A stretch of DNA of 64,000 nucleotides from Pyrinomonadaceae bacterium. Lineage in GTDB: Bacteria > Acidobacteriota > Blastocatellia > Pyrinomonadales > Pyrinomonadaceae. The stretch covers positions 248,001-312,000 of the forward strand of contig JACMJZ010000012.1 in assembly GCA_014380365.1 (NCBI GenBank), given 5' to 3'. Below are positions 32,002-59,500 of this stretch, one piece after another (positions within the stretch are counted from its first letter, which is position 1; every line of letters starts with the position of its first letter). The translations under genes were made by a program, and so were the position numbers. The notes beneath the pieces are model-generated. The model searched no databases. It saw nothing but the letters and a program-made list of their open reading frames with translations, and was not told the origin of the DNA.

Positions 32002-32549
32002 TTTGGACTTTCTTTCAAATCTAATCGAATTCCTTGTTCGAAACATTTTTACCCTTTCAAAAAGAGCGGCATCTGCGCCGCTGATCAAGACTTTCGTCAT
32101 GGGGGACCTCCGGTTCAACCAAATCTCTTGAGCCAGGAGGCAGTAGTGAACACCTTCGCGCCACGGCGGCACGCACGGTAGGGCAGACAAATGCGCAAAG
32201 GGAGTTTTGCGCTCTAGTCTATTGGCACTGATTGTTTGCGGATGAAGGGATCAGGAATCCGGTGCGGATAATCTGTGGAGAACCCTCGACTTCAGCCTTG
32301 TTCTAATGACCCACTATGACCCGGGGCACCAGGTCGTAGTAAATTTACAATTAACTTGTGGAACGATGAGGTTATACAAAAACTATTGAAGGCAGTCAAG
32401 CGACGCTTTTTTTCCGCGTACTAAGCAAGTAACGTTGCATTGCCAACGTCGATGACTCGGGGCTCTTGCCCGGGCATCACAACTCTAGGACACTACTCCG
32501 ATCGCGCTGCATTAAAGAAGTCACTTTAGTTTTCTGGTATCCTGAGCTC
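32002..32549. other. Gene-free divergent region (548 nt)
   Basis: This lies between the HYR gene (minus) and the propeller gene (plus). I see AT-rich stretches, a GCGCAAAACTCCCTTTGCGC hairpin (rev. strand, about 32192-32212) and possible -10-like words such as TTATAC near 32372. No convincing riboswitch, RNA gene or small ORF could be supported. Confidence 0.4.
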
Positions 32550-34412
32550 ATGAGAAAGCTATCTTTTGTCAGATTGATTTTCCTGATGGCAGCCTTCTCC
32601 GTCTTCACCGCGGCAGCATCCAATGCACAAACATGGACGGCAAAGCTGGACGACAGCGTGCGTTTCTATCAAGCAACTGACATGGGAGTGCTGATTGTTG
32701 GCACCAGGAAATCGCTTTACGCCATTGACGGCTCGACCGGCGAAGTCCTCTGGCGTCGCAAGGATGCTGCTCTCGACGAGTCGGACGTTGCGGCGGTGCC
32801 CGACTCGGATTTGCTCCTGCTGAGTTTTCAAAAAGGCGATCGCACGCGAGTCGAAGCCGTCGATCTTTTTACCGGAGACGCAATCTGGCAGAGCGACAAA
32901 CTTCGTGGGGGCCTGATGCATATGGCCGTGGACACGTCGGCTAATTTGCTTGGAGTTGTCCTCGCGAAGGATGCGAAGGAGAAGCCAAAGGAAGATTTCA
33001 AGCGCCATCCGCTCCTGCATGTCCTCGAACTTTCCACGGGTGACCAGCTTTGGAAGCATGAGGTGGGCGAAGTGGAGATGATGCCGTCGCGCTGGCCGGA
33101 AGACGGCGAGGTCGAATACACGTTGGATAATTATCACGCGCCGGTTTTCCTGGACGGCAGGCTCTATTTGTTCTATGAAGGCCTGACCTCTTTCGACTCG
33201 CGCACGGGCAAGTCGCGGCTGCGCGAGCGTTACCGGGTAAACGAAGACGGCCTGGCGCTCACCGAATCGATTCCAATTTTCGATGAACGCGTTGTCTACA
33301 CATCCGGTCACGGCCGCGTGCGCGCCATCTCGCGCGAAACGGGCGATACGGAGTGGGAGGCGAAGGACCTGGGGCGGACGCCGGAGATGATTTTGGTTGG
33401 CGATGTTCTTTACGTTCGCACCGGCGGCCAGTTCACTCGCCTTAAGGACGGCGAGACCGTGGAGCGCGGCCCTTACGGCGTCAGCGCCATCGACACGCGT
33501 AGCGGCAAAGTGCTCTGGCGTTACAAGGGCGCCGACAAGGGCATCACTAATCTTGTCCTGCCGAATGCGTCGAGCATTGTGATCGCAGATCGTGACGACC
33601 TGATCGACATCGATACAACGACCGGCAAACGACGCGCGCGTGTCAGGCACGGAATAGAACGAGCGTCTTTTGGACTTCTGAATGAACGCGGCGATGTTGT
33701 CATCGGGGGACAATCTGAAATCGCTGCATTTAACACGTCGGACGGTCGCGAGATGTGGCGCGCTCGCCACACCCCGCCGGGCCGTGGCCTCTTTCGCACG
33801 ATTGCCGCGATCACCGCGCGGGCCGCGTCGCTTTATTTCCGCTACGGCGGCGCTGCCACGACGGCGTTTCGCGGTGTGCAAGTCGCACGCGGGTTGAGTA
33901 GCTTGAGCTCGTCCGGTTTAGTGCGTTCTTCAACTTCAAACCTGCAAGCTCTGGCGACGAACTCAGCTCGCAACTACGCGAGATCGTATGCCGCCTCTCG
34001 TTTCAGACAATTCGGCGTGGCCGCTCGCGTCCGCGATCGAATCTCGGCGGGCATGCCTTCACGGCCTTCAGTCCCGTCTCCGGCGGATATATTGCGTCGT
34101 CGTAGCGCGAACGTTGATGAACGACTGTTGGATCGCATCGACCCAGCCCATCAGCTCGAACGGCTGTCGCGTTTCTTGTGGCATCGCGATCGCCTCGCTG
34201 CTTTGCGTGGACAGTGGATGTATTTTTACACGAGCCTGAAAGGCCGCGGTGGAAACGGACTGGCCGGCGTAAATATCAACTCCGGCGAAACTGTGCGTCA
34301 GATTCGCTTGAGCGATCTCGATGAACGCTTCGTTACCGATGAACCGCTGGGATTGATGTTTGTGTCAGCGGGAAACCGCATCCTGGCCCACTCGGTTACC
34401 AACGAACGTTGA
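32550..34412 (+). CDS. Secreted PQQ-like beta-propeller protein
   Basis: The protein has 620 residues from ATG 32550, where a signal peptide (LIFLMAAFSVFTAAASNAQ) begins; the frame from 32466 adds 28 unlikely residues. Repeated blades have the PQQ/quinoprotein pattern: SLYAIDGSTGEVLWRR, VEAVDLFTGDAIWQS, HVLELSTGDQLWKHE, VRAISRETGDTEWEA, VSAIDTRSGKVLWRYKG, AAFNTSDGREMWRA. A Ser/Ala/Arg-rich helical insert (about 440-545) separates the last blade (GLAGVNINSGETVRQIRL). It may be a BamB-like scaffold or a quinoprotein; no cofactor residues can be assigned. It is convergent with the FlhA-like operon. Confidence 0.75.
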   Translation: MRKLSFVRLIFLMAAFSVFTAAASNAQTWTAKLDDSVRFYQATDMGVLIVGTRKSLYAIDGSTGEVLWRRKDAALDESDVAAVPDSDLLLLSFQKGDRTRVEAVDLFTGDAIWQSDKLRGGLMHMAVDTSANLLGVVLAKDAKEKPKEDFKRHPLLHVLELSTGDQLWKHEVGEVEMMPSRWPEDGEVEYTLDNYHAPVFLDGRLYLFYEGLTSFDSRTGKSRLRERYRVNEDGLALTESIPIFDERVVYTSGHGRVRAISRETGDTEWEAKDLGRTPEMILVGDVLYVRTGGQFTRLKDGETVERGPYGVSAIDTRSGKVLWRYKGADKGITNLVLPNASSIVIADRDDLIDIDTTTGKRRARVRHGIERASFGLLNERGDVVIGGQSEIAAFNTSDGREMWRARHTPPGRGLFRTIAAITARAASLYFRYGGAATTAFRGVQVARGLSSLSSSGLVRSSTSNLQALATNSARNYARSYAASRFRQFGVAARVRDRISAGMPSRPSVPSPADILRRRSANVDERLLDRIDPAHQLERLSRFLWHRDRLAALRGQWMYFYTSLKGRGGNGLAGVNINSGETVRQIRLSDLDERFVTDEPLGLMFVSAGNRILAHSVTNER

Positions 34413-34476: not shown

Positions 34477-36459
34477 TCAATTCGCTGGTACCGCAGAATC
34501 CCTCCCGGGCACAAACGCTATCGGCTGTACGTTTGCCGATTCCGCAATCGACTGCCGGTGCACGACATTCATCTCCGGAAAATCCTGGGCGATCATGTCC
34601 TGAACGAGTAGCGCAACATCCGGTGTCGTGGCCAGGAAGATTACTGGCGTTCCGTAGGTTTCTACAAAACCCTCATTCATGCCCTGAAGGATCTCCGCCA
34701 TTTCCAGCTCGCTGAATGGGTGGCTGTCGGCTCCGGGTGCGAGGCGGAAGGCCAGCAACCGTTTCTCGATATCGGCATCGATCAGATAACAGAGAATCGT
34801 ATTCGGCCCGCGGGTCACCTTGTACGTCACTAATTGCCGCATCCCGCATTTTACGAACTCGGCATTGATCCGGCCGTTCGCAATCCATTCCGGCGCGGGC
34901 TCGGCAAATAACTGCATACCGCGCATATCGAACCGAGGAATGTATGGATCGTCTGCCGTGAAATACGGCTCACCCGTGAACTCCGCAACGCCGACATACA
35001 GGTATGGCGCCCGTCCTTCCCATCCGGCTGTAGGCGAGCGAACTCCGGTAGTGTATGAGAAGTCCAGCATCAGCTCCAGCACACCCCGGAGATCGCGGAT
35101 GGTCACACCATCGCGCAGCAGCCAGCGCAGAACTTGCGCAACTTCGAGCTGGCTATATTGATGAAGCGTGGCGCCTACCAGCGCGGGAAAGGCGGAATTC
35201 AGCGTTGCCAGAAGATCCTCCACGTCATCGAGCGAGAGCAAAGTGGAGGCAGCCAATCTGAGTTCGGTGGCGAGCAACACCACCAGATACTCGACCTGAT
35301 CCCAGGTGTAAGATTCAGCGCGCAACTGATGGCGCGAACTCTGCGAGATGATCGCGCACGGATTGCCGTTCGCCGGGTTCGCACGCGGCCGCCCGTTAGG
35401 AACTCCCTCAGCGGTCAGCCGCTCCGGCGTGTCGTTGACTAGCAGCTCATCCTCGGCGAGGCCGCGCTGCACCGGAGTCAACCTCTGGTGAAACCGGAAC
35501 CTGCAGCAATTCGCCGGCAGCTCCGCATCGACCACCACGTTGATGCTGCAGAATGAGACTCCCAACTCGTAAAAGAGACCCTCGCGCATCATGCTCAGCA
35601 GGCCGGCAGGCTCCTGCGCCAATTCCCCTTCGGGATACGGCGTTCCCGCCACCGGATCGTCCTTGAGCAGTTTCTTCGCCAAAGCCGGATCCACGTGGAT
35701 CTCGATGGCCCCAGGACGCCAGACGTCGATATGTCGTTCCGCTATCTCACCCGCTGTCAAGCCTTCTCCCTGTCCTCGAAACACCGACTGCACAAGGGCG
35801 GCTGTATCCTGGACCTCAACGTGTACTCTCGTAAGGCGACGAAGCACCTCTGTGACAAGACTCCGGTCCAGTACTCTCATGGCTGAACGCGCTCTGGCAT
35901 TCTGCTCCCGCGCCTGCGCCAGTAACGCCTCAGTGCGTCGCTGCCTGATCACCTTTTTGAGGACAGGACGCGCTCTGGCAATCTCGCCCCGCGCCCGCGC
36001 CAGCACCGCCTCCGTGACTTCCGGCGTGATCACCCTTTCCGCCGAACTCTTTACCGCCTCGACCACGAGTTCGGCCAACAATGCCTGCGCCAGACCCAGG
36101 CTCTCGTCTTTATTAGCTGCTTCGGCCAGCAGTTGCCGTGCGGCCTTCAGGACGGCGGCGTGATCCGCCAACTCGCGGCCCGTTGAACTCTCGTACGCGA
36201 GGGCCAGTTGGCGTTTGCTGAAACCGCAGCGAACCCCGTTTAGGATTACGGCGACATCGATAAACCTTGGACCCGGCGGATGGTCAACCAGCGTCAGCTT
36301 CACGCTGGCATCCACGGGCAGATTCAGGGCATCCAGCCATTCCTGCAACCTGGTGCTGATCTGGTCTGCGAGGTGCATGCCGCCGCCGCCGCCGCCGGCT
36401 TTCGCCAGCGCCACGGCCGCGGGACCCAATTCGACAGTGATGTCGGCGTGTGCCGTCAT
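34477..36459 (-). CDS. Soluble protein with FlhA/SctV (FHIPEP)-like C-terminal domain
   Basis: The protein has 660 residues from ATG 36459, 4 nt after the stop of the larger gene, so translation is coupled. The N-terminal 240 residues are helical and Ala/Arg-rich, with no membrane segment. From about 247 on, the order of motifs follows the cytoplasmic domain of flagellar FlhA/type III SctV: WRPGAIEIHVDPALA, LGVSFCSINVVVDAELPANC, the helix pair ahead of PALVGATLHQYSQLEVAQVL, WLLRDGVTIRDLRGVLELML, ILCYLIDADIEKRLL, GTPVIFLATTPDVALLVQDM and FPEMNVVHRQSI. FlhA's eight-helix export gate is absent. FlhA domains form nonameric docking rings for export substrates. A role here in ring assembly is inference. 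Confidence 0.7.
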   Translation of the reverse strand: MTAHADITVELGPAAVALAKAGGGGGGMHLADQISTRLQEWLDALNLPVDASVKLTLVDHPPGPRFIDVAVILNGVRCGFSKRQLALAYESSTGRELADHAAVLKAARQLLAEAANKDESLGLAQALLAELVVEAVKSSAERVITPEVTEAVLARARGEIARARPVLKKVIRQRRTEALLAQAREQNARARSAMRVLDRSLVTEVLRRLTRVHVEVQDTAALVQSVFRGQGEGLTAGEIAERHIDVWRPGAIEIHVDPALAKKLLKDDPVAGTPYPEGELAQEPAGLLSMMREGLFYELGVSFCSINVVVDAELPANCCRFRFHQRLTPVQRGLAEDELLVNDTPERLTAEGVPNGRPRANPANGNPCAIISQSSRHQLRAESYTWDQVEYLVVLLATELRLAASTLLSLDDVEDLLATLNSAFPALVGATLHQYSQLEVAQVLRWLLRDGVTIRDLRGVLELMLDFSYTTGVRSPTAGWEGRAPYLYVGVAEFTGEPYFTADDPYIPRFDMRGMQLFAEPAPEWIANGRINAEFVKCGMRQLVTYKVTRGPNTILCYLIDADIEKRLLAFRLAPGADSHPFSELEMAEILQGMNEGFVETYGTPVIFLATTPDVALLVQDMIAQDFPEMNVVHRQSIAESANVQPIAFVPGRDSAVPAN

Positions 36460-36463
36460 TGCT

Positions 36464-39400
36464 TCACTCCACCGAGATTGCCGGGAGGCCGTCGTAAGCA
36501 TGCGGGGGCATCAGTTCGTAGCTCGCGAGTACTGGGACTTCGGGCCACTCCGCCCGGATCAGGTAGCGCACGAAGTACCGTGATCGCTCTTCAGAGGTGA
36601 CCAGCGCCGGGCGCCTGCCATTTTTGGAGAATTCCGTCCGCACCGCACTAAAGAACGCCGACAGGTCGTCGGCCGAGACCGAAAACCTTTCGCCCCGCAA
36701 GGAGTGTGCGTTCAGCATCGCCTGGAACGGATCGGAGAGCCTGAAGTACACATAGTCGTCGTCATTGCCCCACAGGTGCTCGCGTATCGGTTCGCGCAGC
36801 AGGCGCCGACTCTCCACAGGGTCTCCAATCCCGTGTGCGGCCCACAGCCCTGCCGCCACCCGTTCGGGTTGCGTCAACGGCAGCCGGTCCTCCAGGAGTC
36901 CCTGCAGCTGGCTGGTGGTTCGTCGCAGCAGCCGGTAATCCTGGCGAACGGCACGGATGTGCTGCGCTTCCTCCGCGGGCAAGCCGGTTTCGAGCCATTG
37001 GCCAAGCGTGTTGTCGGCCTCCTGAACGCCGAAGAATTTCACCACGTTCTGCCGGATTATGAACTCGAGGTGGGCAGTTACGTATTCCAAGTGGTTCAAG
37101 ACCCCGTTTTGCTCCCGCCCGCGAGCGTTGCGAGCGTTGTCCGGGGCGCGCCACTCACCCTCGGGAGGAAAACTGGATCCTTCCGCTGCATAGGAATACG
37201 GCCAGGAGAGTTGGGACGGATTGCCGTTTGCGCTGCGTATGAACACTTTGTCGGGATACGCAGAGCCCGTGACCAGTGGAATCTCGTTGATCATGATCAG
37301 GTATTGATCGTTCGGCACTTCTGTATTGTCCCGCATGCGAACCCCGGGGACCGTCACCCCTGTGTCTCTCCTGACTCGCTCCCGCATCTTTGGGAACAGT
37401 TTCTCGACGAGGCTGTCGATGCTTGGGCTGTCGTGGCCGCCGAGAAGGGCGGTCGCTATCTCGAGCCCTAGCGGCGTGACCACGGGAAAAATATCGAGGT
37501 TCCTGGCGCCGGGCACTATCGACGCGTTATCCGGGAAGTAGCGCGTGTCGTTGTGCTTGAGCGTCATCTCCGCCATGCGACAATCCCCGATCTCATCAGG
37601 GTCGGATGCGTAGAGGCGCTGTTCAGCGCTCAGCCATTCCCGGAAGGCCGACCGCCCTATGAGGAAGCGCTGGCGGGCTTCGCCTTCCATATTGCCAACC
37701 GATGCAAGGTTGTCCACCCCTGCGGCAATCGCCGCTCGCCATCGTTTCTCAGACTTTTTTAGCTCGAGGAAGGGCTCCTCTCCCGCGTCGACCCTCTCGA
37801 GCATCGCCAGCAACGCGCAGCGGCGCAGCGTGTAAGTCATAGCGGGTTGGCTTCGTGCGGGAGGTTGACGATAGAGCTTCAGGAACTGTTGGAACCGGGT
37901 GGAGTACTCCGCAGGATCGGAGCGCCGTAGCATGCGAACCGCCAGGTTGAGCGCTTCGCCATCGGAAGCGACATCGGAACATTCGGCATCAATCCGCGCC
38001 GCCGTCGTCGAGGCCTCCAGGGCCAGTTCAAAAAGGCCGATCGACGTTAGGTACTCGCCGACCTTCCAGAGGGTTTCTGGATCCGTCGAGGTGGTGACGG
38101 CGCGTGTCAGCGCAATGCGCGTGCCCTCGTTGCACTGCGTCTCGATTTCGCGATACCGCTCAAGCACGTTCTTCAATTGTTGCTTGCGGGTGTGAAAAGT
38201 CTCATACCCAATGTTCCGGATGGCGACGTGGATGGAGAACGGCGAGCAGTTCAGTGCGTTGTCGAGGGCCAGCAGGATCCGCTCGACGTTCGCTTCCAGC
38301 CGATCGACCTCGTCTTCGTTGATACCGTTGCCTTCCATTTCCTCGTCGTGAATATTACGCAGCTCGTCGAGCGCGCCGACCAACGCGGGTGCGTCCGGCA
38401 TCCTGCTGGGGCCGCTTGCTTCCAGCTGCTCCATCTTTTGCTTTTCACCCACTTTCACAAGGTCCGAGAGCAGCCGCATCCTCTCAGCAACCGGCTCCAG
38501 CAGCTCTCGTTTGCGCTTGGTCCGGCGCGCAATCCCCAACAATTGTTCTGTTCCCAGCCAGTTGTACAGTGCCCCACTCAGATCCGGACGCCTGGCTGTG
38601 TCAACGAACCACTTCACCTTTTCATGGTCGGTAAATGGGCTTTCCGCAATCCACGAGAGCGTGTTAAATGAATAGGGGTCGTCCGCTCGCCAACGTTCGA
38701 TGAGCGTCCTGATTTTGAGGTCATATTCGGTATGCTTAATCCGAGATCCCTCGGTGCTCAAGTCGCGCAGGCGCCGCAGCAGGGGGACATCCTCAAAGGC
38801 GAAAGTTCGGTTGATGTGATCCAACAGCAAAACGGCTTTCTGGCGGCCTGAAGTGCTCAGCGTGAGCGTCTTGACATAAGTCGCCAAGGCGCCGGTATGG
38901 ATGTCATTGAACTGCTTTTCCCACCGTCGCTCGTTCAAAGGATCGCGGTCGTGGATGGCCTTCCAATTAAACTCGCCTTTCGTCCATAGCCAGCGGTGGG
39001 GCACCAATGCCTGGATATGGTCCTTGACTTCGGCTTCAAGCGAGGTGGCAATCGTTTCGTACTCCCTCTTCCTGTCCTCCGCGATGCGTCGGTCATCATC
39101 GGATTCGCTCTGAGCCATTGCTCTTTCCTCCTGCTGGGCCGCGAGCCGCGCCACAAACGCTTCGTAGGCATTCGTCTCTGCTTCCCGCAGTATGCCGAGA
39201 GTCCAATGAGGGTACATTTCCCAAAGTTTCTGGTCGTAAACCTTTGCCTCTTCGGTTTGTTTGCGGGCATCGTCAAGCGCCCGCTGGATGCTCTGCCGCT
39301 CAGACTCGATCTTTTCGTCCAGCGGGTTTGAGCCTGGGTCAGCGCCGGTACGCGGCGTCCCACCAAGGAAGCTTCCGAGCTTTCCCATGCTCCCTTGTTG

Positions 39401-41623
39401 CACCCAGTCGACCGGGGCCTGGTCTACAGCACTCAAGGCCTGGGCGGCGGGGGTCCGGACTTGGGCTGTAGCGCTTCCCTTTTCCTTCTGCGCCGCGTCG
39501 ATCAGGGCCTGGGCCGCTGCAATCTTTCTTTCCAACTGCGCTTCATTCAGGTGGCGAACTCTCAACTCCCTTAGATTGTTTTGGGCAAGCGGGTTTTCGG
39601 AATCAAACAGTCCGGCGAGTTCGAAGGCCCCCTCCGCCCGACGACGGTACCGGCTATCCGCAGTGCGTTCGTAATACCAGCTACAGCACTCGCCGTAGTC
39701 ATTGAGTACGAATGCAAACACTGAGTTAAGCACCCGCGGCGGCAGGCCTTTCGTTTTGTCCGGGTTCGCCAGATGCTCCTCAACCTTAGTACGGTAACGC
39801 TCAAAGCGGTTGAGAACGGCCTCACCCATCATCATGAAGTAGTAGCTGCGGAAATCGCCGAGGTGCGATCCGCTAGGCGCAATCATGTCGGATACGGCCG
39901 TCTCCTGGCGGCAATACGCCTCCTGCAGTTCCCCTTGCTCCGCCGCAATTCGCGCCAACCCGTAGTCCAGCTCGGCGACAAAGGTTTCCTGCTTGATCTG
40001 CTTGTAGTCGCGGCCCGCGCGTAAGCACCCCTTGGCTACGTCACATTCCTCCAGCAGCCAGTTCAGGTAACCGCGGTTCGCCCACGCTCCGACATTGCCG
40101 GGGTTGAGGTCGATCACGCGCTGGTATTCGAGGATCGGAATTGCCGCGAGGCTTTTTTCGAACGCGGGCCGCGCGCGCCACTGCCGCTCCGCCTGGAACG
40201 CAACCGACCACTGCGCAGTCTCAAGTCGCGGCGCCAGATTTACAAGGTGCCGAAACGCCTGCTTTTCGCTTGGCGCCAGTTCGCTTCGCGCCATTTGAAA
40301 ATGGATGTCGCGGTCGCGAGTTGCATCCAGACTGCGCGCCGTTCTGAGTTCTTTTTCAGCGTCGTCGCGCTTGCCCAGGTAGTAGCACACGAGTGCAAGG
40401 CTCACGTGCGCGTCGAACAATGCCTCGCGACAGCCCGGCGCATCCCCGGGGAGTCGGCGCAAACGTTCCAGGGCGTCTTCGGCCATGCTCTGCGCTTCGA
40501 ATGCAGAATTAACCTTCTGTCCCGAGAGGCTCGCCAGCATTCGGCTGTACTGGAGCATGTTCACGTAGCCGGTGAGGGCCCGCGCACACATGATGTCGCG
40601 TCTGGCAAATCCCAGGTTCATTGGTGCAAGCCAGGCCAGCACCCGACGCGACAGTGAAACTCTCAAACGTGTCAGCCTGGCAAAGAATCGCCGAAAGGGT
40701 GAAACCGGCAGCGGTCCGAGACACGGGTCGAACAGGCGCGCCGACGCGTCGTAAAGACGACCTGCCTCTGCATAGCCGTGAAGTGTGTTGGAACGGGCGT
40801 AATCTTCGGCTTCGTGGAAAAGGGCTTGCGCCCGCAGAAACCGCGTCGGCATTAGTTCGATCTTGCCGGCTACATCCGTCTGAATTTGCTGGTAAATCTC
40901 CGTGGCGACACTCGAGTAGACACGCTCGAGAAGGGCTTTGTACTCGGAATGCTTGAGCTTAATCTCGCCTTCCTCGGCCCGCGACTTCGGCAGCTCGAGG
41001 GGAGTAGACGCCGGATCCGAAGGGTAGGATACGGGGTACGCCAGTTTTCTTGCGTACCCCGAGCCGATTCCGACGTTGGGCATGATTTCAAGCGCCAGGT
41101 ATTTGTCTGCATCGTCTCGCGCCCGCACCACGTAGGTTCCGCCGATATCAATGTGCGATTCGTCCTTCTGCGCAGTTGAGCCACCTGGCTGGCTTTTGAC
41201 GAACCGGATCCGCTCGACCCGCTGGCTCAGCAGTTCTGCAAGATCCTCGGCTAGCCATCCAATCTCACGCACCTTTGGGGAATGCGGCAGTGGGGTAATC
41301 GGCTCGATGCTGCAGGTGTAGCGGAACGGCTCACGAGACTGCCGCAACCAGAATTTCGACCATGTAAACAGGAGGAGGAAGAGCGGCAGAACCAGGAGCG
41401 ACCCGATACGAATCGCCGTGATCGCACGCGCAGCCGCGGAACCGGGAGGCGGGGTCCCGAGCACTCCTTGCTCGAACAAGCCGAACACGAGCTGCAGAAT
41501 CGCGGTGAACAGAAATCCGTACTGTCCCACACGCCCGACTTTCTGAATTTTCCGCAGGCCCGCTTCGACCCCCTCGATTTGCTCAAGCAGATTCGAGGCT
41601 GGAATGAGGCTGGGTACTTTCAT
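36464..41623 (-). CDS. Giant membrane-anchored TPR protein with FlhA/SctV (FHIPEP)-like C-terminal domain
   Basis: The protein has 1719 residues. Two membrane helices lie near 36-56 and 70-95, then a soluble domain (about 110-240). TPR-like helices follow (about 260-690; VSLALVCYYLGKRDDAEKEL, LEYQRVIDLNPGNVGAWANR), then a coiled-coil-rich part (about 690-880) and more helical repeats. The last 345 residues (about 1375-1719) match the FlhA/SctV cytoplasmic domain in order: VVTPLGLEIATALLGG, GVTVPGVRMRDN, PNDQYLIMINEIPLVTG, YPDKVFIRS, HLEYVTAHLEFIIRQN, and the closing RPALVTSEERSRYFVRYLI plus EVPVLASYEL. No flagellar or type III gene is in the window. The downstream gene encodes a second such domain. 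I do not know a described system of this form. Confidence 0.7.
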   Translation of the reverse strand: MKVPSLIPASNLLEQIEGVEAGLRKIQKVGRVGQYGFLFTAILQLVFGLFEQGVLGTPPPGSAAARAITAIRIGSLLVLPLFLLLFTWSKFWLRQSREPFRYTCSIEPITPLPHSPKVREIGWLAEDLAELLSQRVERIRFVKSQPGGSTAQKDESHIDIGGTYVVRARDDADKYLALEIMPNVGIGSGYARKLAYPVSYPSDPASTPLELPKSRAEEGEIKLKHSEYKALLERVYSSVATEIYQQIQTDVAGKIELMPTRFLRAQALFHEAEDYARSNTLHGYAEAGRLYDASARLFDPCLGPLPVSPFRRFFARLTRLRVSLSRRVLAWLAPMNLGFARRDIMCARALTGYVNMLQYSRMLASLSGQKVNSAFEAQSMAEDALERLRRLPGDAPGCREALFDAHVSLALVCYYLGKRDDAEKELRTARSLDATRDRDIHFQMARSELAPSEKQAFRHLVNLAPRLETAQWSVAFQAERQWRARPAFEKSLAAIPILEYQRVIDLNPGNVGAWANRGYLNWLLEECDVAKGCLRAGRDYKQIKQETFVAELDYGLARIAAEQGELQEAYCRQETAVSDMIAPSGSHLGDFRSYYFMMMGEAVLNRFERYRTKVEEHLANPDKTKGLPPRVLNSVFAFVLNDYGECCSWYYERTADSRYRRRAEGAFELAGLFDSENPLAQNNLRELRVRHLNEAQLERKIAAAQALIDAAQKEKGSATAQVRTPAAQALSAVDQAPVDWVQQGSMGKLGSFLGGTPRTGADPGSNPLDEKIESERQSIQRALDDARKQTEEAKVYDQKLWEMYPHWTLGILREAETNAYEAFVARLAAQQEERAMAQSESDDDRRIAEDRKREYETIATSLEAEVKDHIQALVPHRWLWTKGEFNWKAIHDRDPLNERRWEKQFNDIHTGALATYVKTLTLSTSGRQKAVLLLDHINRTFAFEDVPLLRRLRDLSTEGSRIKHTEYDLKIRTLIERWRADDPYSFNTLSWIAESPFTDHEKVKWFVDTARRPDLSGALYNWLGTEQLLGIARRTKRKRELLEPVAERMRLLSDLVKVGEKQKMEQLEASGPSRMPDAPALVGALDELRNIHDEEMEGNGINEDEVDRLEANVERILLALDNALNCSPFSIHVAIRNIGYETFHTRKQQLKNVLERYREIETQCNEGTRIALTRAVTTSTDPETLWKVGEYLTSIGLFELALEASTTAARIDAECSDVASDGEALNLAVRMLRRSDPAEYSTRFQQFLKLYRQPPARSQPAMTYTLRRCALLAMLERVDAGEEPFLELKKSEKRWRAAIAAGVDNLASVGNMEGEARQRFLIGRSAFREWLSAEQRLYASDPDEIGDCRMAEMTLKHNDTRYFPDNASIVPGARNLDIFPVVTPLGLEIATALLGGHDSPSIDSLVEKLFPKMRERVRRDTGVTVPGVRMRDNTEVPNDQYLIMINEIPLVTGSAYPDKVFIRSANGNPSQLSWPYSYAAEGSSFPPEGEWRAPDNARNARGREQNGVLNHLEYVTAHLEFIIRQNVVKFFGVQEADNTLGQWLETGLPAEEAQHIRAVRQDYRLLRRTTSQLQGLLEDRLPLTQPERVAAGLWAAHGIGDPVESRRLLREPIREHLWGNDDDYVYFRLSDPFQAMLNAHSLRGERFSVSADDLSAFFSAVRTEFSKNGRRPALVTSEERSRYFVRYLIRAEWPEVPVLASYELMPPHAYDGLPAISVE

Positions 41624-42641: not shown

Positions 42642-43505
42642 TTAAGTCGGGCTGGGGAAAACCAATTGATACAGTCTTTGCTGTTGCGACTGCTCGAATT
42701 CGAAGTTGTCCGAATTTAATCGCCAGTTGGTAAATATGGAGAACTGGTAATTCGTTTCGTTATCCTGGTAGGCTTCTTCGGCGGTCTGAAAGCCCGATTC
42801 AAACTTCGCTCCATAAGCGAACTTAAACCCGCTGACTCCGGCGCTTTGAAACTGGCTCGGATTTGTAAATCCCGAATACAACTGCAGATTCAAAAAGTCC
42901 ACGTTGTTGTTCACAGCCGTGGGATCCAGATTCCCTACTGCAGCAGGGGAGAGCGTCAGGTAATAATGTTTATCTGTTTGCTGTTGAAACTGTGCTCCGA
43001 TGGCATTGATCAGGAGTGCGAATTGCGCTTGGGTCGTGTTATCGGAAATCGGGTACTCCCAGTCCAGATCAAAGCCATCAAGATTAAAACTCTGCAGATA
43101 GACCATCAGGTTGGAAGCGAAGTTGGCCGCGTTCTGCTGATCCGAAAAATTGGGATTCGAAAATATATTCGAGAGCACGCTGCCATCACCATATTCCAGC
43201 GTCACCGCAATCTTGATGTTGGGGTTGTTTAGGGGCGCATCCTTGAGGATATTATTCATGTAGGGCTGGTTGTGTGCTGCGGCGCCCATCCTAATAGTAA
43301 ACGAAGAACCATCTCCGGCAGGGATGGTATCTGCGCTTGTAGGTAGCGTGGTGACAAAGCAGAGGTACAGGATATCTACAGACTGATAGACGTTGTTTTG
43401 GATGAGCGACTGGTAGCAACTGTTTGGGCTGTCGTAGTTGGTGCCGGCAGGCTCATCTTCATTCAAAAAGATCCAAGCATTAACGAGTTGAGTGTTTGCG
43501 TTCAT
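42642..43505 (-). CDS. GH18-family (chitinase-like) protein without signal peptide
   Basis: The protein has 287 residues. The GH18 catalytic motif DGFDLDWEYP (DxxDxDxE, about residues 142-151) is intact with the Glu proton donor. The strand pattern of the TIM barrel is recognisable: VDILYLCFV at the start, NPNIKIAVTLEYGDG, HYYLTLSPAA, and VDFLNLQLYSGF. A strong GGAG site precedes ATG 43505. There is no signal peptide. GH18 enzymes cleave chitin or related GlcNAc glycans, though some are only binding proteins. It overlaps the upstream small membrane protein gene by 26 nt and is the last gene of the minus-strand cluster 47372-42642. Confidence 0.85.
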   Translation of the reverse strand: MNANTQLVNAWIFLNEDEPAGTNYDSPNSCYQSLIQNNVYQSVDILYLCFVTTLPTSADTIPAGDGSSFTIRMGAAAHNQPYMNNILKDAPLNNPNIKIAVTLEYGDGSVLSNIFSNPNFSDQQNAANFASNLMVYLQSFNLDGFDLDWEYPISDNTTQAQFALLINAIGAQFQQQTDKHYYLTLSPAAVGNLDPTAVNNNVDFLNLQLYSGFTNPSQFQSAGVSGFKFAYGAKFESGFQTAEEAYQDNETNYQFSIFTNWRLNSDNFEFEQSQQQRLYQLVFPSPT

Positions 43506-46291: not shown

Positions 46292-46380
46292 GATTACTCC
46301 CTTGCGGTTTGGCTGATTCGGATGACTCGGGGCGGCGCATATATCGCTCTCTCATTTCGCTGAGTGCATCAATGAGTTCC

Positions 46381-46611
46381 TGGTCTTGTAAATCTTCAAC
46401 TCCGATTCATAAACCTTGCACTCCGGGTCATGAACCTTCGAGTCTGATTCGTAAACCTTCAAGTCTGATTCGTGAATCTTCAAGTGTGATTCGTAAACCA
46501 TCTACTCGGATTCGTAGACCTTTCACTCGGATTCGTAAACCCTTCACTCAGATTCGTAAACCCTTCACTCAGATTCGTAAACCTTCAAGTCTGATTCGTG
46601 AATCTGGCTAT
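46381..46611. repeat. 21-bp tandem repeat (minisatellite), about 11 units
   Basis: The consensus is CTGATTCGTAAACCTTCAAGT, with all units exactly 21 bp and variants such as CGGATTCGTAGACCTTTCACT. It occupies most of the 349-nt gap (46292-46640) between two minus-strand genes. The plus strand stays open over it (repeat peptide RKPFTQI), because 21 is a multiple of 3. Confidence 0.9.
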
Positions 46612-46640
46612 TCCACCCAGAGTCGAACTGGTTGTTTCGG

Positions 46641-47372
46641 CTAGGTTCCCGATTTTCGTCCAAACTTCAACCCCTTGATTTGTTTGTAGACATTGCTGTT
46701 CGTGCCCAACTCCCCAGCCACAAAAGCCTTCGCGAGTAACGCCGTATTGACCACGCAGTCGGGATTGAGGTAGAGCAGTTGATCGCGAACGCCGCGCGAC
46801 TGGCTCAACGGCACAAAGGTCGCGCTGACGGCGTTGTTTTTGGCCTGCAGGTCCGTCGCCAGCGCAGTCAGCGCGGCAAGCTTCAGACTGTTGTCGTTGG
46901 GTTGATACTCAGGTATTTCGCGCAGGATCGCTACATAGGCGCCAAAATTTGCCAGTTGATTATCGAAGCTTGTCTGCGCCGCTGAATGCTGGACTGTCGC
47001 TTCCGTTGCCGTAGTGTTTGGATCATCCTTAACTTTGGCGATCTTGCGTCTGCCAAGTACTTTGCGATAGGGAGTGTCAACGTTGGCAACCGCCGCTTTT
47101 GAAGCGCCTGAAGCCTTTAACACATTGCGCGTCCGAGGGATTATGGCCGGTAATTTGTCGTAAGCGCTCTGGCGTTCACTGATCGCCAGCTTATTTGGGG
47201 CGATCTTGTTTCCGCAGTCCTGGACCGCAGCAAGTGCCGCGGTGTATTGGCCCTCCATCGCAGCCGTAGTCAGTTTCGGATTCGGTGGCGCGTAAGTGGA
47301 TTCAGCGGTGATAAAATCTATGAGTTTGCGGTAGTTGCCGAGGAGTTTCATGTCTCCTGCTTCGGTTGCCAT
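46641..47372 (-). CDS. Unknown alpha-helical protein
   Basis: The protein has 243 residues. It is mostly alpha-helical and soluble, with no signal peptide or membrane segment. Its N-terminus (LLGNYRKLIDFITAESTYAP) and a YRKVLGRRKIAKVKDD segment near the middle are distinctive. Two similar helical halves may be present. I do not recognise the family. It is the first gene of the minus-strand cluster, followed by the minisatellite. The 399-nt region upstream (47373-47771) holds no gene, only the palindrome at 47653-47733. Confidence 0.6.
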   Translation of the reverse strand: MATEAGDMKLLGNYRKLIDFITAESTYAPPNPKLTTAAMEGQYTAALAAVQDCGNKIAPNKLAISERQSAYDKLPAIIPRTRNVLKASGASKAAVANVDTPYRKVLGRRKIAKVKDDPNTTATEATVQHSAAQTSFDNQLANFGAYVAILREIPEYQPNDNSLKLAALTALATDLQAKNNAVSATFVPLSQSRGVRDQLLYLNPDCVVNTALLAKAFVAGELGTNSNVYKQIKGLKFGRKSGT

Positions 47373-52120: not shown

Positions 52121-53518
52121 CTAAACGAAGCCTAAATTCGAATTGGGGAAACGACTGATCAAGGGAAAGACTGCGGGCAGATCACTCGTGGACAATCCAT
52201 ACCAGGTCGCCAGCGTGGCGGCGTATTGTTCCACCGAAGTCGTCGGAATCCAACGCCCCCGCGGACTACCGCCGCCGTCGGTGTCGTCGGGCCCACCCAG
52301 GGCGAGCGTCGGGTAGCTGCCGTAGATCCTGCTGCCGAGGACGGAACCACCCATAATCAAGTGGTGGTTTCCCCATGCATGATCGGAACCAGCCTGGGCG
52401 CCAGTGCCGGCAGGTTGAAGCGTGCGCCCAAAGTCGGAAAGAGTGAACGACGTAACGTTGTTCTGCACGCCCAGTTCGACTGTAGCGCTGTAGAACGCGT
52501 TCATCGCCTGGCTAACTTGCGTCAGAAGCGCCGCCTGACCGGTGAGTTGAGTGGAGTGCGTATCAAAGCCTCCGATTTGCGCAAAGAAAATCTGGCGCTT
52601 CATGTTGATGCCGGCCGTCGGATCAGTGCACGCCTTAATCAGTAACGCGATCTGTTTGAGTTGACGACCAAGTGACGTATTGGGAAACGTTGTTGCCAGG
52701 ACGGGGCTGACCGAGCTGAGGGCGTTGTCGGTTTGAATAGCGCTCGTGCGCGTATCGCTCGCGGCTTTCACCAGCTTGAAGTTGTTGTCGAGCGCACGCA
52801 GTTCGTTGAACGACGCCATCCTTGAGTTGATTTCCGTGGTCGTCGCACCGGGCGCATTGCTCAGAAGCAGCACGTTTGCCAGGCTCGTGTTGGAGTCAGC
52901 TACGGCAAGCTGCCGCGTATCGACTCCGGTCAGAAACAAATTGAGGCCGCTGATAGAAACGTTCTGCGGAAATGCGGCGCCTCCGTTCAAGCCGAGCGTC
53001 TTGTCGGCGACTCGCCCGCCCCAACCCGTCTGACTAACGTTGTCGGCGATCGCAGTTTGAAACAAGCCGACCTGGTCGGAATGCGAAAAGAGCTGCAGCG
53101 GCTTTTTGCCGGTGCCGTTTTGGTACGTCGTTTTCGACAAAGGCTCGACCAATGGTCCGTTATTCGCCAACAAGGCGACACGTCCCTGGTCGAAAAGGGC
53201 TTTCATCTCCGGCATGCTCGGATGCAGTCCGTAGGAGCCGCCGCTTGCCGGCGAGATCGGAAGGAAATTGGCTTGCGGGATAGCAAGGCCGGCAGCGTTA
53301 CGGGCCGTTGAGTACGCCGCATACTGACCCAGGTCAATCAGCAAGTTATTGCCGTCGTTTCCGCCGTTCATGAAAATGCACACGAGCGCCTTGTAGTCAG
53401 TTGCCGACTGAGGCGTAAGCGCATGGATGGCGCCAAAACTATCGACACTCGAGGCCAATGCCATGCCGCCGAGCGCACAGGCGCTATTTCGTAGAAAGTC
53501 TCTGCGTGATGTAGCCAT
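52121..53518 (-). CDS. DUF1501 family protein with Tat signal
   Basis: The protein has 465 residues from ATG 53518, where a twin-arginine signal (MATSRRDFLRNSACALGGMA) begins. The DUF1501 marks are present: LVCIFMNGGNDGNNLLID near the start, GLHPSMPEMKALFDQGRVAL, IGGFDTHSTQ and TLSDFGRTLQ with HAWGNHHLIMGG near the end. The fold resembles alkaline phosphatase/sulfatase-like enzymes, but the function of DUF1501 is unknown. It is encoded 4 nt after the DUF1800 gene; the two families occur together widely, so they probably work as a pair at the cell surface. Confidence 0.92.
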   Translation of the reverse strand: MATSRRDFLRNSACALGGMALASSVDSFGAIHALTPQSATDYKALVCIFMNGGNDGNNLLIDLGQYAAYSTARNAAGLAIPQANFLPISPASGGSYGLHPSMPEMKALFDQGRVALLANNGPLVEPLSKTTYQNGTGKKPLQLFSHSDQVGLFQTAIADNVSQTGWGGRVADKTLGLNGGAAFPQNVSISGLNLFLTGVDTRQLAVADSNTSLANVLLLSNAPGATTTEINSRMASFNELRALDNNFKLVKAASDTRTSAIQTDNALSSVSPVLATTFPNTSLGRQLKQIALLIKACTDPTAGINMKRQIFFAQIGGFDTHSTQLTGQAALLTQVSQAMNAFYSATVELGVQNNVTSFTLSDFGRTLQPAGTGAQAGSDHAWGNHHLIMGGSVLGSRIYGSYPTLALGGPDDTDGGGSPRGRWIPTTSVEQYAATLATWYGLSTSDLPAVFPLISRFPNSNLGFV

Positions 53519-53522
53519 GGTT

Positions 53523-55805
53523 TTATCTCTGTATGTCGTACTGCGAAGAAGTTGCCACGAGGTACGCCGCAACCTGCGCCCGCTTGCGCGCGAAGGCGGC
53601 GTCGGAAGTGGGAATCGCATTCATCGCGGTTTTGATCGAGTTGCGCACTTCTGTGGACATGGTTCCGTGAAGCATCAGGGCATTTAACTGGTCGGCTATC
53701 GCGTCGGGATTTGAAGCGTTCGCTTCGAGATTCGCCAGATCAACTGAAGTGCCTTTCGGCCGATCAGGACTGAAAGCCGTGGGCGACGTCAGGTTCGCGG
53801 ACACTCCCGTATAGATCAGAGTGTTGACATTATTCGCCCGGCGCAATGTGGTTGAAGTGGAAAGAATTCCAAAGGCCGGTCCAAGTATCTTGGTGCCGGG
53901 AACTTCATACTCAGGTTGGTAATAACTAAAGACCGTCGTCGGCGTGAAGACAGGCTGATCCAATGAGCCGGTGAAGTCCACAGTCGATCGAGTATCCAGA
54001 ACGCCGTCGCTGGTCGAGAGTTTGTCGAACGATTTAACGTTGAGAGCCCGGAGCACTCCCACGATGTACTGGGCCGGTTCGCGCAGCTTCCCGTAGTGAT
54101 GCGCTGTTTTCACATCGCCGCGCGCTTCGGGATCGAGGAGGATCGCCTGAACAACCGCTCTCAGGTTTCCACGTGTGCTCGAACACCCGGCGGGATATAG
54201 CGCATCGCAATCGTTGTTGAAAACGCGTGCAACTCGAGCCACGTAAGCCGGGCTCGGATTGCTGGTCACCAAATGCTGAATCAACTGCTTCCCGATGAAT
54301 GGCCCCACATTGGGATGATTAAAGATATTGTCGAGCGCCGCGGTCAGGTCTGTCTGGGCGCAGGCTTGGTTATTCCCGCAACTAGCCACCACTTGATTAT
54401 TCAGCAGCGTCTTCGCGCTCCCGTCGTGAGCAGTTCCCGCGCGGGGCACCATCGGATCGCGCCAGTTATTGATCCCGGGACCGATCAGAGTGGGACTGAG
54501 ATTCCACCCCGTAAACACTTTCGTAAATTCGTTGACCGTGGTTTGCGAGTAAGAAGGAATCGGCATGCCCTGCCCATCAAGTTTTGGTGTGCCGTCGATG
54601 TTAAGTTCGTTAACGCCGATCGAGAAGAGTTGCAACACTTCGCGGGCCCAGTTTTCATTCGGGCTGGTGCGCGTGCTCAGGCGCATGTCGAGGTACTCAC
54701 CCATGGACGGGTTAAGCGTGACCTCGTTTAGCAGCGTGCGATAGTTGCCAAACGCGTGGCGGTCGAGCGACTGAAGATAGATCGTCATCCAGCTTCCGCG
54801 ATTTAGAGGGTTAACGCCGGACACCACGAGGATTTGGTGCAACGCAAAAGCGACGCGCTGTCGCAACTGATCCTGGCCGTACATCGCACCTGTAAAGAAC
54901 GTGCGACGGAGCGGGTACATGGAAAAATTGTCGCGGTTGCAAACGTTCTGATTGTAGTTGGGGTCTCCCGGACTCGAACTGGGACATGCAGTGGCTTGAT
55001 CGTCGAGTGGAAACGTTAAGTCGGGATAGTTTGAACCCTTGCCCGGGTTGGCGACGGGAGCGTTGAACTGCTCGTTAAGATAAGCCTGAAAGCCAACTGC
55101 CTTAACGTGTGCAAGATCAACAGCATTGGGCCCCCAGGCGGCCTGATCGAGAAAACGGACTGCATCGGCATCTGACGCAGGACCGGTGTAGGCATCAGGA
55201 ACCAGCGGCGGATCAACGGGAGGCGGGCTGGCAGGCGCGGGCGTGGGCACGGAACCGGCATCGTCTGCCGGTCCGCCACCCGTGTGACCGATCGCGACGC
55301 GAACGCGGTTGCTGGACATGCCGTGCAGGTTCAGACTGAGAAGTACGTCACCCACATCTCCCATGTCATCCGCCAGCCGCACAACGATCATCGTGATGCC
55401 GCGGAAATCTGAAGTAATATTTCCCTGAGCGTCGAGTGCCGGCGGCACCGCGCCTACGAATTCAATTCTGAGCGGATAACGCTTGCCGGCGGCATCCTGC
55501 GCATCAGCGCTAAAGGCGTTGGCGCCTTCACCCGGAAGCAGTTCCAGGTTCATCGCGAAGATACAAATCCGCGTCCGCGTATCATTGCTGAATTTTACGG
55601 TAGAGGTTAAGGGAAACGGTTCGGCCTTTAGAGTCACGGCTTCCAACGCCACAGCTCGAGTGGAATTGGCGTCGCTAATCAGGACCGGGGACTTGTTAGT
55701 CGCAGCGTGAGTGAGACTGGCCGACGTGCAGATGGCGGCAAACAAAAACAGACTGACGAGCCTAAGAACGCGCTTAGGCCAGCAACGCGGGAGATTGGTT
55801 GACAT
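53523..55805 (-). CDS. DUF1800 family secreted protein
   Basis: The protein has 760 residues. A signal peptide (LVSLFLFAAICTSASLTHA) is followed by a beta-rich N-terminal domain (about 40-180) and a Pro-rich linker (PTPAPASPPPVDPPLVPD). The DUF1800 domain takes up the rest: DADAVRFLDQAAWGPN, QLRQRVAFALHQILVVSGV, NPSMGEYLDMR, NENWAREVLQLFSIGVNEL, HDGSAKTLLN, NVGPFIGKQLIQHLVTSNPS and FSPDRPKG. It is paired with the DUF1501 gene directly downstream. The molecular role is unknown. The 300-nt region before it (55806-56063) has no gene. Confidence 0.92.
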   Translation of the reverse strand: MSTNLPRCWPKRVLRLVSLFLFAAICTSASLTHAATNKSPVLISDANSTRAVALEAVTLKAEPFPLTSTVKFSNDTRTRICIFAMNLELLPGEGANAFSADAQDAAGKRYPLRIEFVGAVPPALDAQGNITSDFRGITMIVVRLADDMGDVGDVLLSLNLHGMSSNRVRVAIGHTGGGPADDAGSVPTPAPASPPPVDPPLVPDAYTGPASDADAVRFLDQAAWGPNAVDLAHVKAVGFQAYLNEQFNAPVANPGKGSNYPDLTFPLDDQATACPSSSPGDPNYNQNVCNRDNFSMYPLRRTFFTGAMYGQDQLRQRVAFALHQILVVSGVNPLNRGSWMTIYLQSLDRHAFGNYRTLLNEVTLNPSMGEYLDMRLSTRTSPNENWAREVLQLFSIGVNELNIDGTPKLDGQGMPIPSYSQTTVNEFTKVFTGWNLSPTLIGPGINNWRDPMVPRAGTAHDGSAKTLLNNQVVASCGNNQACAQTDLTAALDNIFNHPNVGPFIGKQLIQHLVTSNPSPAYVARVARVFNNDCDALYPAGCSSTRGNLRAVVQAILLDPEARGDVKTAHHYGKLREPAQYIVGVLRALNVKSFDKLSTSDGVLDTRSTVDFTGSLDQPVFTPTTVFSYYQPEYEVPGTKILGPAFGILSTSTTLRRANNVNTLIYTGVSANLTSPTAFSPDRPKGTSVDLANLEANASNPDAIADQLNALMLHGTMSTEVRNSIKTAMNAIPTSDAAFARKRAQVAAYLVATSSQYDIQR

Positions 55806-56511: not shown

Positions 56512-59500
56512 TCACGGCGGGCTGGAGCCGACCCGTGTGAAGAAGGCGATCGTCGCAGGTGATCCATGTGACGAGATGAAGGCGCCGAGTTGACCGAGCA
56601 CCAGCTCATTGTTCAGATCGATGCGGTAGAAGTAGAGTCCTTGAAACGCTGCGGCGCTGCTGAGATCGGTTGCCGGGACGTTTTGCCAGCCCTGATTCGT
56701 CCAGGCGCTCGTCGTGCCCGCCGGCGTGTCGCCGTTTCGATACCAGTTCCATTCCGAGAGCGGCACGTCGGAGCAGGCCACCACCGAGTTGGTGACGGTG
56801 TAAAGGGTGTTGTCGTTTGGGCCGCCCAACGCGAGGAGGATTTTGAAATAGCCTACCTCCGGCGTCGCCGTGACCGTGTTGCTCACCGCGCTGAACTGCC
56901 CGTAAGGGAGCTGCGGGTCGTTGGCGTTGACGTTGAATATCTCGTTGATGAGCGCGCCCAGCGAGCCGGCCACGACGGGCGCGAAGCCCGCGGGGATGGG
57001 CCAGGGCTGCTCGGGCAGCGTATAGAAGAAGACCGTCGCGGCGTTCTGCGACATCATGAGGAAGTCCGCGAGGGTCGGACCCATTGTGACGTTCTTGAGG
57101 ACGACCCGGTAGAAGTAGAGTCCGCGGTAGGCCACAGAGGTGTTAACGGTCGTCGCGTCGAGCACTTTCCAGCCGCTACTCGTCCAGATGCTCGCGACGC
57201 CCGTTTCATTCGCATCATTCTCATGCCAGGCCCACGCGGAGAGTGGGACGGTGGAACAGCCGATGACGGCGTTGAACAAATAGTTGGGCTGCGCGTTGCC
57301 GAGATTTAAGAGAACCTTGTAGGCGTCGTCGTCGAGCGTCGCCGTCAGCACGCTCGGGCTGGCGCTGAACTGTCCGCGAGTGAGACTGGCGGTCGCCATC
57401 TCCTGGTTAACAAGGTTTCTGATGAGGTCGGCGACGTTCGAGACGAGAACGGGGGTGTACCCGACGCCGACGGGGAAGGCCGGTTGGTAAGCCCAGACCA
57501 CATTACTGAATTTTCCGAAGCTGATGCCGCCCAGCAAGTAGATGAAGTTGTCCTGCGCGGCCACGCCCATCTGCCCGCACGTCCACGCAGCGCTGCTTTC
57601 GAGCTGAGTCCAGTTTGTGCCGTCTGTCGTGACCCAGGTGTCGAAGAGTTCGCGCGTCTGCGTATTGATGCCGCCGATCAGGTAGAGGCTGCCGTGGACG
57701 ACCGCCGAGCAGGCGTCGAAGCGTGACGCCCAGGGCGGCGCCGCCTCCTGACGCCAGTTGACGCCGTCCGCCGTTGACCAGACGTCCTGAAGGCTGTTAC
57801 CGCCGAAGGAGCCGCCCATGATCCAGATGCGCCCGTTGAAGACGACGGCGGTGGCGCTGTCGCGTTTCGACCACGCGGCGGCCGGTGCTGCCTGCGTCCA
57901 CGACGCGCCGTCGGTCGAAGTCCAGACGTCGTTGTAAACGTTCCCATCGTGATCCATGCCGCCGAAGACCCACATCTTGCTTTGGAAGACGACGGCGCAC
58001 AGCCCGAAGCGCGAGGGCCATTGAGCGGCGGACGTGGCCTGCGTCCAGCTACTCCCGTCCTCCGACGACCACACGTCGTTCTTATCGCCCGACGATGACT
58101 CGCCGCCCATCAGCCACATCTTGCCGAGGTAAACCAACCCGGCGGCGTTGCGGCGGCCCACCCACGGTGCGTCGCCGCTGACCTGTGTCCACGCGCGGCC
58201 GTCCGGCGAGCTGTAGACGGTGTTTGAATACTGCCCGGCCATCGCCCACAGTTGCCCCTTGTAGCTGAGCACTACCGGGTTGGTCATCATCGGCGGCCCC
58301 GCCGTGGTGACCCGTGTCCAGCCGCCTGGTATCTGGAAGGGGACAGCGTCGCTGTAGATGCCCTCCTTCCCCTGATAGACCGTCGTGACTTTGACCGAGT
58401 AAGAGCCGGGCGCGAGCGCCGACACGTCGGCGGCGGCGGTCGTGCCGGAGTAGAGCACATCGGGTTGAGGCTGTAGCTCCTGACCCCGCGAGTCGAGGAA
58501 CAGCAGTCGGAAAGTATCGATGCCGGGATACGGCTGCCACGAGGCGAAGACCGAGTCGGCGGCGTAGAGCGTCAGCCCCGCCGGTGGCGTCGTCGGCGCG
58601 TAATTGATGAGCGCGGTCAAGGAGTAGGGACTGACGGCCGAGTCGTTGGCCGCCTGCACGTTGAGGTTGTAAATGGCGAACGCGAGGTTGGTTGCGTCCG
58701 CCCGGGCGGTCGTGCCCGAGTAGGTGATGGGCGGCTGCTGGGCGAGGTGGTTACCGTCCGGGTCTGAGACGGCCAAGTTGTAGCGGGTCGCGCCATCGAC
58801 GACTCCCCACTCGACCACGATGTCGTTGCCTTGCATGGTTACGTTGGTGATCGTGGGCTTCGCGAGGAACGCGACGGTGATGGCGACCGGCGTACAGAAA
58901 ATCCCGTCGGCGTTGGCGGACGTGCCCTTGACCTGCACTTTAATCTGCGCGCCCGAGACGATGCCCACGCCGGAGAGTTCCGCCGAGAAAGTGGCCGTTC
59001 CGAACGTGACCGCGTTTCCGTGCTCGTCAACCCCGACCGCCGCGGGCACCCCCGACATTGCAATCTCCGGCTGCGGGTCGAGCGGCCGGTCGAGGTTATC
59101 AAGGTCGAGGTTATCAAGGACGAGAACCGTGTAGCTGCTTGCGCCGGGAACTTCCGGCCACTGCGCCATCACGGCGGCGCTGACAAGGTGCAGCGTCAGG
59201 CCCACGGGCGCGGGCAGCAAGACCGAAGCCGTGGCAGAGGCGGGCGCGCTCCACGGCCCGCGGCTCGGCGGCGCGTCGAGCGCGCGCACCTGCACCTGAT
59301 AGGTTGTGCCGTTCTGCAAGGCGGAGGAGTCGAAGTGCGCGTTCGTCCCGTCGTATGTGACAGGCGGCTGTGCGGGGAGCGTTTCCCCGGCCGCGTCGAG
59401 CGCGAGCGCCTCGTAGCCGCCCGCGCCCGTGACCTGCTGCCACTGCGCCGCGATGACGTTCGGCGTGGCGGACAGTTGCAGCCCGGTCGGGGCCGGCAGA

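Follow-up and report, generated by a model that had tools for sequence, protein, structure and literature searches.

A gene pair with the cytoplasmic ring domain of the SctV secretion gate, in a genome without a detected secretion machine and with protease-type neighbors in related loci

Two neighboring genes of a Pyrinomonadaceae bacterium carry the cytoplasmic ring domain of the bacterial secretion gate SctV in a genome in which no secretion machine of that kind was found, and five related gene pairs, in at least three bacterial phyla in all, lie beside protease-type genes. This suggests that the ring domain was reused as a control platform for proteins that cut other proteins. Our analysis started from a stretch of 64,000 nucleotides, here called the window (GenBank assembly GCA_014380365.1, contig JACMJZ010000012.1, positions 248,001 to 312,000). 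The original prediction for this DNA held that both proteins end in an FlhA/SctV-like cytoplasmic domain, that neither possesses the eight-helix export gate, and that the pair might form a ring or scaffold outside secretion. The fold, the missing export gate, the pairing and the conservation across genomes were each tested and held, whereas the formation of a ring or scaffold remains an inference from the SctV/FlhA family. Three refinements can be added: the domains derive from the SctV (injectisome) branch rather than from FlhA, the small protein probably contains a cryptic second copy of the domain, and relatives of the pair sit next to protease-type genes. The features of the locus are as follows.

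36464-41623, minus strand: large protein, 1719 aa, with a membrane anchor, an N-terminal domain, TPR-like and coiled-coil parts, and a C-terminal SctV/FlhA cytoplasmic domain
41459-41530, minus strand: first hydrophobic helix of the large protein (about residues 32-55)
41345-41431, minus strand: second hydrophobic helix of the large protein (about residues 65-93)
40826-41341, minus strand: N-terminal domain of the large protein (about residues 95-266)
39554-40501, minus strand: TPR-like helical region of the large protein (about residues 375-690; limits approximate)
39074-39541, minus strand: probable coiled-coil region of the large protein (about residues 695-850; limits approximate)
36506-37495, minus strand: SctV/FlhA cytoplasmic domain of the large protein (residues 1377-1706)
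36460-36475, minus strand: junction with the large-gene stop, a GGAG and the 4-nt gap before the small-gene ATG
34477-36459, minus strand: small protein, 660 aa from the ATG at 36459 (674 aa from the upstream in-frame ATG at 36501)
35767-36441, minus strand: degenerate extra copy of the domain (D1-D3-like) in the N-terminal half of the small protein (about residues 21-245 of the 674-aa ORF)
35887-36038, minus strand: 81-bp imperfect tandem duplication inside the small gene
34510-35718, minus strand: canonical SctV/FlhA cytoplasmic domain of the small protein, with an insert near residues 484-540

The likelier start of the small gene is the ATG at 36459, which stands 4 nt after the stop of the large gene and has GGAG 7 nt upstream, so that the 4-nt gap of the original prediction is right. 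Base use by codon position is coding-like, with GC values of 0.64/0.44/0.71 for the large gene. Pfam assigns FHIPEP, the SctV/FlhA family, to both proteins: residues 1377-1706 of the large protein match profile positions 326-654 (E 2.6e-21), and the small protein is matched (E 1.1e-23) in two stretches split by an insert, the best being residues 302-483 against profile positions 357-535. The gate half of the family (profile 1-325) is not matched. In a phmmer search of the PDB, the best hit was CdsV (6wa6), with E 5e-18 for the large and 1.5e-15 for the small protein. AlphaFold models of the two proteins (pLDDT 76 and 70) were compared with solved structures by Foldseek, and the top hits were FlhA (6ai0, 1.8e-19), YscV (7qij) and CdsV (6wa6); for the canonical domain of the small protein, 6wa6 was matched with E 6.8e-18 and a TM of 0.82 on the target. 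As the alignments used for these models contained SctV sequences, the structural matches are supporting and not fully independent of the sequence match. Neither protein reaches the NCBI equivalog level for SctV, as their scores of 54.9 and 80.7 bits compare with a cut-off of 692.

A hydropathy scan placed two hydrophobic helices at the N-terminus of the large protein, while the small protein has none there. Such an anchor was absent from the large proteins of the four other loci scanned. The N-terminal domain that follows is shared (40% identity, E 1e-30) with a frame-broken gene in another genus (genome G139, locus L113, 12745-14800, minus strand). This gene is a homologue of the N-terminal half of the large protein (helix pair, domain, TPR), split between two frames and without the SctV domain; the half therefore exists apart from it. 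TPR matches are only weak in the large protein of the window but strong in most orthologues, and the coiled-coil assignment rests on a weak DUF4407 match (residues 695-842) and on sequence inspection.

No secretion system was found, although FliQ, FliR and FlhB were not included in the search. In the 95%-complete genome of the window, the only FHIPEP matches are these two proteins. The four other pair-carrying genomes tested likewise have no FHIPEP outside the pair locus, except for one short contig-end piece in one of them that is probably the rest of its small gene. FliP (PF00813) is absent from all five genomes, while two control genomes in the same search were positive. One might consider the pair as the cytoplasmic export platform of an unrecognized, highly diverged type III-like secretion system, since SctV-C is the substrate-docking ring of such systems (PMC9163089) and the large protein of the window is membrane-anchored. 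However, the missing gate half, the absence of FliP and of any other FHIPEP in five genomes, and the lack of an anchor in the other large proteins scanned speak against this view, and we consider it very unlikely.

The pair is conserved. Class-wide, 3 of 162 genomes carry it, and 32 others have a match, mostly full-length FlhA or SctV; a strikingly long-branched full-length SctV-like gene (end branch 2.4) was noted in the same class (locus L029, genome G154, contig C115, 4602-6557). Together with a scan of the genome collection using an alignment of the large C-domains, this yielded the related loci L033, L035, L067 and L069, and a class sample around L069 yielded a sixth locus, L115. These five loci originate from two relatives of the window's class, an Ardenticatenaceae genome (Chloroflexota) and a second genome of its class, and one genome whose phylum has four members in the collection. 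Since the collection scan missed L115, the family is probably under-counted. A scan of genome contigs with the small window protein alone found nothing, and viral contigs and plasmids gave no relatives. Four further hits (L070-L073) are complete SctV genes and were kept for the phylogenetic analysis. A sample of 396 genomes of the window's phylum gave, apart from the window itself, only matches in ORFs of ordinary FlhA/SctV kind, and 195 genomes of the L072 phylum gave only matches in ORFs of ordinary SctV length.

A careful maximum-likelihood tree of 50 cytoplasmic domains separates FlhA (100/100) from a side holding SctV and the large and small domains (100/100). The large domains (6 rows, 100/99) and the small domains (6 rows, 100/100) each form one clade, so that large and small are distinct orthologous families; the small domains lie beside Myxococcota SctV (94/89). 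The window and L115 rows are long branches, and positions inside the clades are consequently unsure. The N-terminal half of the small protein aligns collinearly with SctV-C subdomains 1-3 over about 200 columns (hhalign E 9e-5 and 2.8e-5), and the scores of 40-45 compare with a maximum of 25 in 100 column shuffles and of 17 for the reversed profile. The small protein is therefore probably a tandem of one degenerate and one canonical domain. In the window, this half also contains the 81-bp tandem duplication, which may account for part of its extra helical segment relative to orthologues.

Could the pair be a mere remnant of a lost type III secretion system, with leftover SctV pieces that fused to TPR and membrane segments and are now decaying? 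The long branches of the window copies (2.7 and 1.9), the internal duplication in the small gene and the related N-terminal half that is split between frames in G139 would fit such a view. It is disfavored by the long intact ORFs with a coding-type codon pattern, by two separately conserved orthologous families with the same gene order in at least three phyla, by the conserved domain motifs, and by the in-operon protease-type genes. We regard decay as unlikely.

The five related loci have a CHAT (caspase-like) or a HExxH gene directly in the operon. In L033, the order is a 356-aa unknown, CHAT (E 9e-24), large and small; in L069, CHAT (E 5e-16) with a sub-threshold EAD7 match (E 0.0014), large and small; and in L115, CHAT (E 1.3e-8), large and small. 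CHAT lies directly upstream of the pair in these three loci, with gene ends that overlap or are a few bases apart. The CHAT His/Cys dyad is present in L033 (GHG, LHLCES) and L069 (GHG, LQACRSG), but both catalytic residues are lost in L115 (GHG to APG, QAC to QIN), and protease activity is thus not universal. L035 and L067 share a different arrangement: a 391-397-aa protein with a C-terminal hydrophobic stretch, a protein with HEFGH followed about 45 residues later by DELFADIFA in both, a paralogue with a degenerate HEYGY motif, then large and small. A weak mCpol match (E 0.0011) in the 391-aa protein of L035 is not seen in its L067 homologue. L067 has frame breaks and an in-frame stop in this operon, perhaps assembly errors. 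The motif reads as a gluzincin-type zinc protease, but this putative assignment rests on motifs alone, as Pfam, NCBIfam and PADLOC give no family.

The window pair has no linked protease. Its neighbors are a convergent PQQ/BamB-type beta-propeller protein (32466-34412, plus strand) and a GH18-like protein of 287 aa that matches only part of the family profile (42642-43505, minus strand), with about 1 kb without clear genes between the latter and the large gene. No CHAT was present among the neighboring proteins scanned; the six CHAT proteins of the genome lie on other contigs, and the metalloprotease-like protein of L035 has no homologue in this genome. Farther away, the window contains ten copies of a 21-bp repeat (46388-46599) inside a small plus-strand ORF (46309-46644) that reads as a repetitive Ile-Arg-Lys-Pro/Ser peptide, a DUF1501 and DUF1800 gene pair (52121-55805, minus strand), and a 2474-aa protein with fibronectin III, Kelch and Ig-like domains (56512-63936, minus strand). 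A gene pair that looks similar to the DUF1501 and DUF1800 pair lies, by inspection only, near the L033 locus (3-2464).

The data lend themselves to a model in which the two genes are a domesticated pair of SctV cytoplasmic domains that no longer serves export and that was turned into a TPR-bearing platform holding or gating proteolytic effectors. We are highly confident of an SctV origin outside a recognizable type III secretion system, but only moderately so of the protease-platform model, as ring formation and protease control are inferred in the absence of a multimer model or an assay. YscV-C is a nonamer, and the TPR chaperone YscY docks in its SD2-SD4 cleft (PMC9163089). By analogy, the large and small subunits might assemble into a mixed ring or arc, and the TPR array would be the docking or sensing arm. 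A bound ligand or partner would change the assembly and so release or activate the co-encoded protease, probably in a stress, conflict or cell-fate response. In the window, the assembly would be tethered to the inner membrane by the helix pair of the large protein and act on a partner encoded elsewhere or not yet recognized. Two unrelated protease types in the same operon position make protease control the best single guess, whereas the dead CHAT of L115 and the protease-free window locus, whose large protein is among the most diverged (only that of L115 is longer-branched), count against it as a general rule; moreover, six loci are few.

Alternatively, the pair may be a structural scaffold, for example a TPR assembly hub for the cell envelope or differentiation, with incidental protease neighbors. 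The membrane anchor and the lack of a protease in the window copy, the CHAT domain of L115 that is catalytically dead by sequence, and a match of the L033 CHAT to the model of the cell-division protein HetF below cut-off (E 4e-15) point in this direction, but the presence of in-operon CHAT or HExxH genes in five of six loci leaves this reading doubtful. A narrower form of the platform model envisions a conflict (immune or suicide) system, in which TPR senses an invader or damage and the SctV-C assembly activates a caspase-like or zinc protease that kills or arrests the cell. CHAT domains, TPR and the weak EAD7 match recall predicted conflict systems (PMC7159879, PMC8195603), CHAT matches SAVED_CHAT in PADLOC (E 3e-15 and 2e-8), and the distribution is patchy. 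However, no NTPase or nucleic-acid sensor family was found in the operon proteins scanned, and PADLOC has no model for the pair itself, so that this proposal remains tentative. More speculative still, and in our view unlikely though not excluded, is an apoptosome-like activation platform, in which one domain from the large and two from the small protein, three times, form a mixed nine-position ring that gathers TPR sensors and switches on caspase-like or zinc proteases.

In comparison with the SctV/FlhA export gate, the pair retains the full cytoplasmic domain in sequence and predicted fold, but it lacks the membrane gate and comprises two paralogous subunits instead of one, with a degenerate extra copy in the small subunit and a fusion to a TPR array that is only weakly matched in the window protein and in L115. 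In the YscV:YscX:YscY complex (PDB 7qij; PMC9163089), a TPR protein and an SctV-C domain also act together, but here the TPR array is fused in cis to the domain. With TPR-CHAT/Craspase and other CHAT-based systems (PMC9729208), three of six loci share CHAT plus TPR (weak in L115), yet TPR sits on the SctV-C protein and not on the protease. The predicted conflict systems share a CHAT effector with a weak EAD7 match in L069, but no NTPase module was found in the operons, and neither of the two main papers on these systems mentions FHIPEP, FlhA or flagellar terms. We found no description of a system such as the one reported here in the open-access literature searched, which is not proof of novelty; what appears new is the composition of the system, its function being untested.

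The SctV/FlhA cytoplasmic domain is known as the substrate-docking ring of flagella and injectisomes. A conserved pair that keeps this domain, drops the gate, and in relatives travels with caspase-like or putative zinc proteases would be a first case of the ring being reused outside secretion, and would give a simple experimental system for asking what the ring does on its own.
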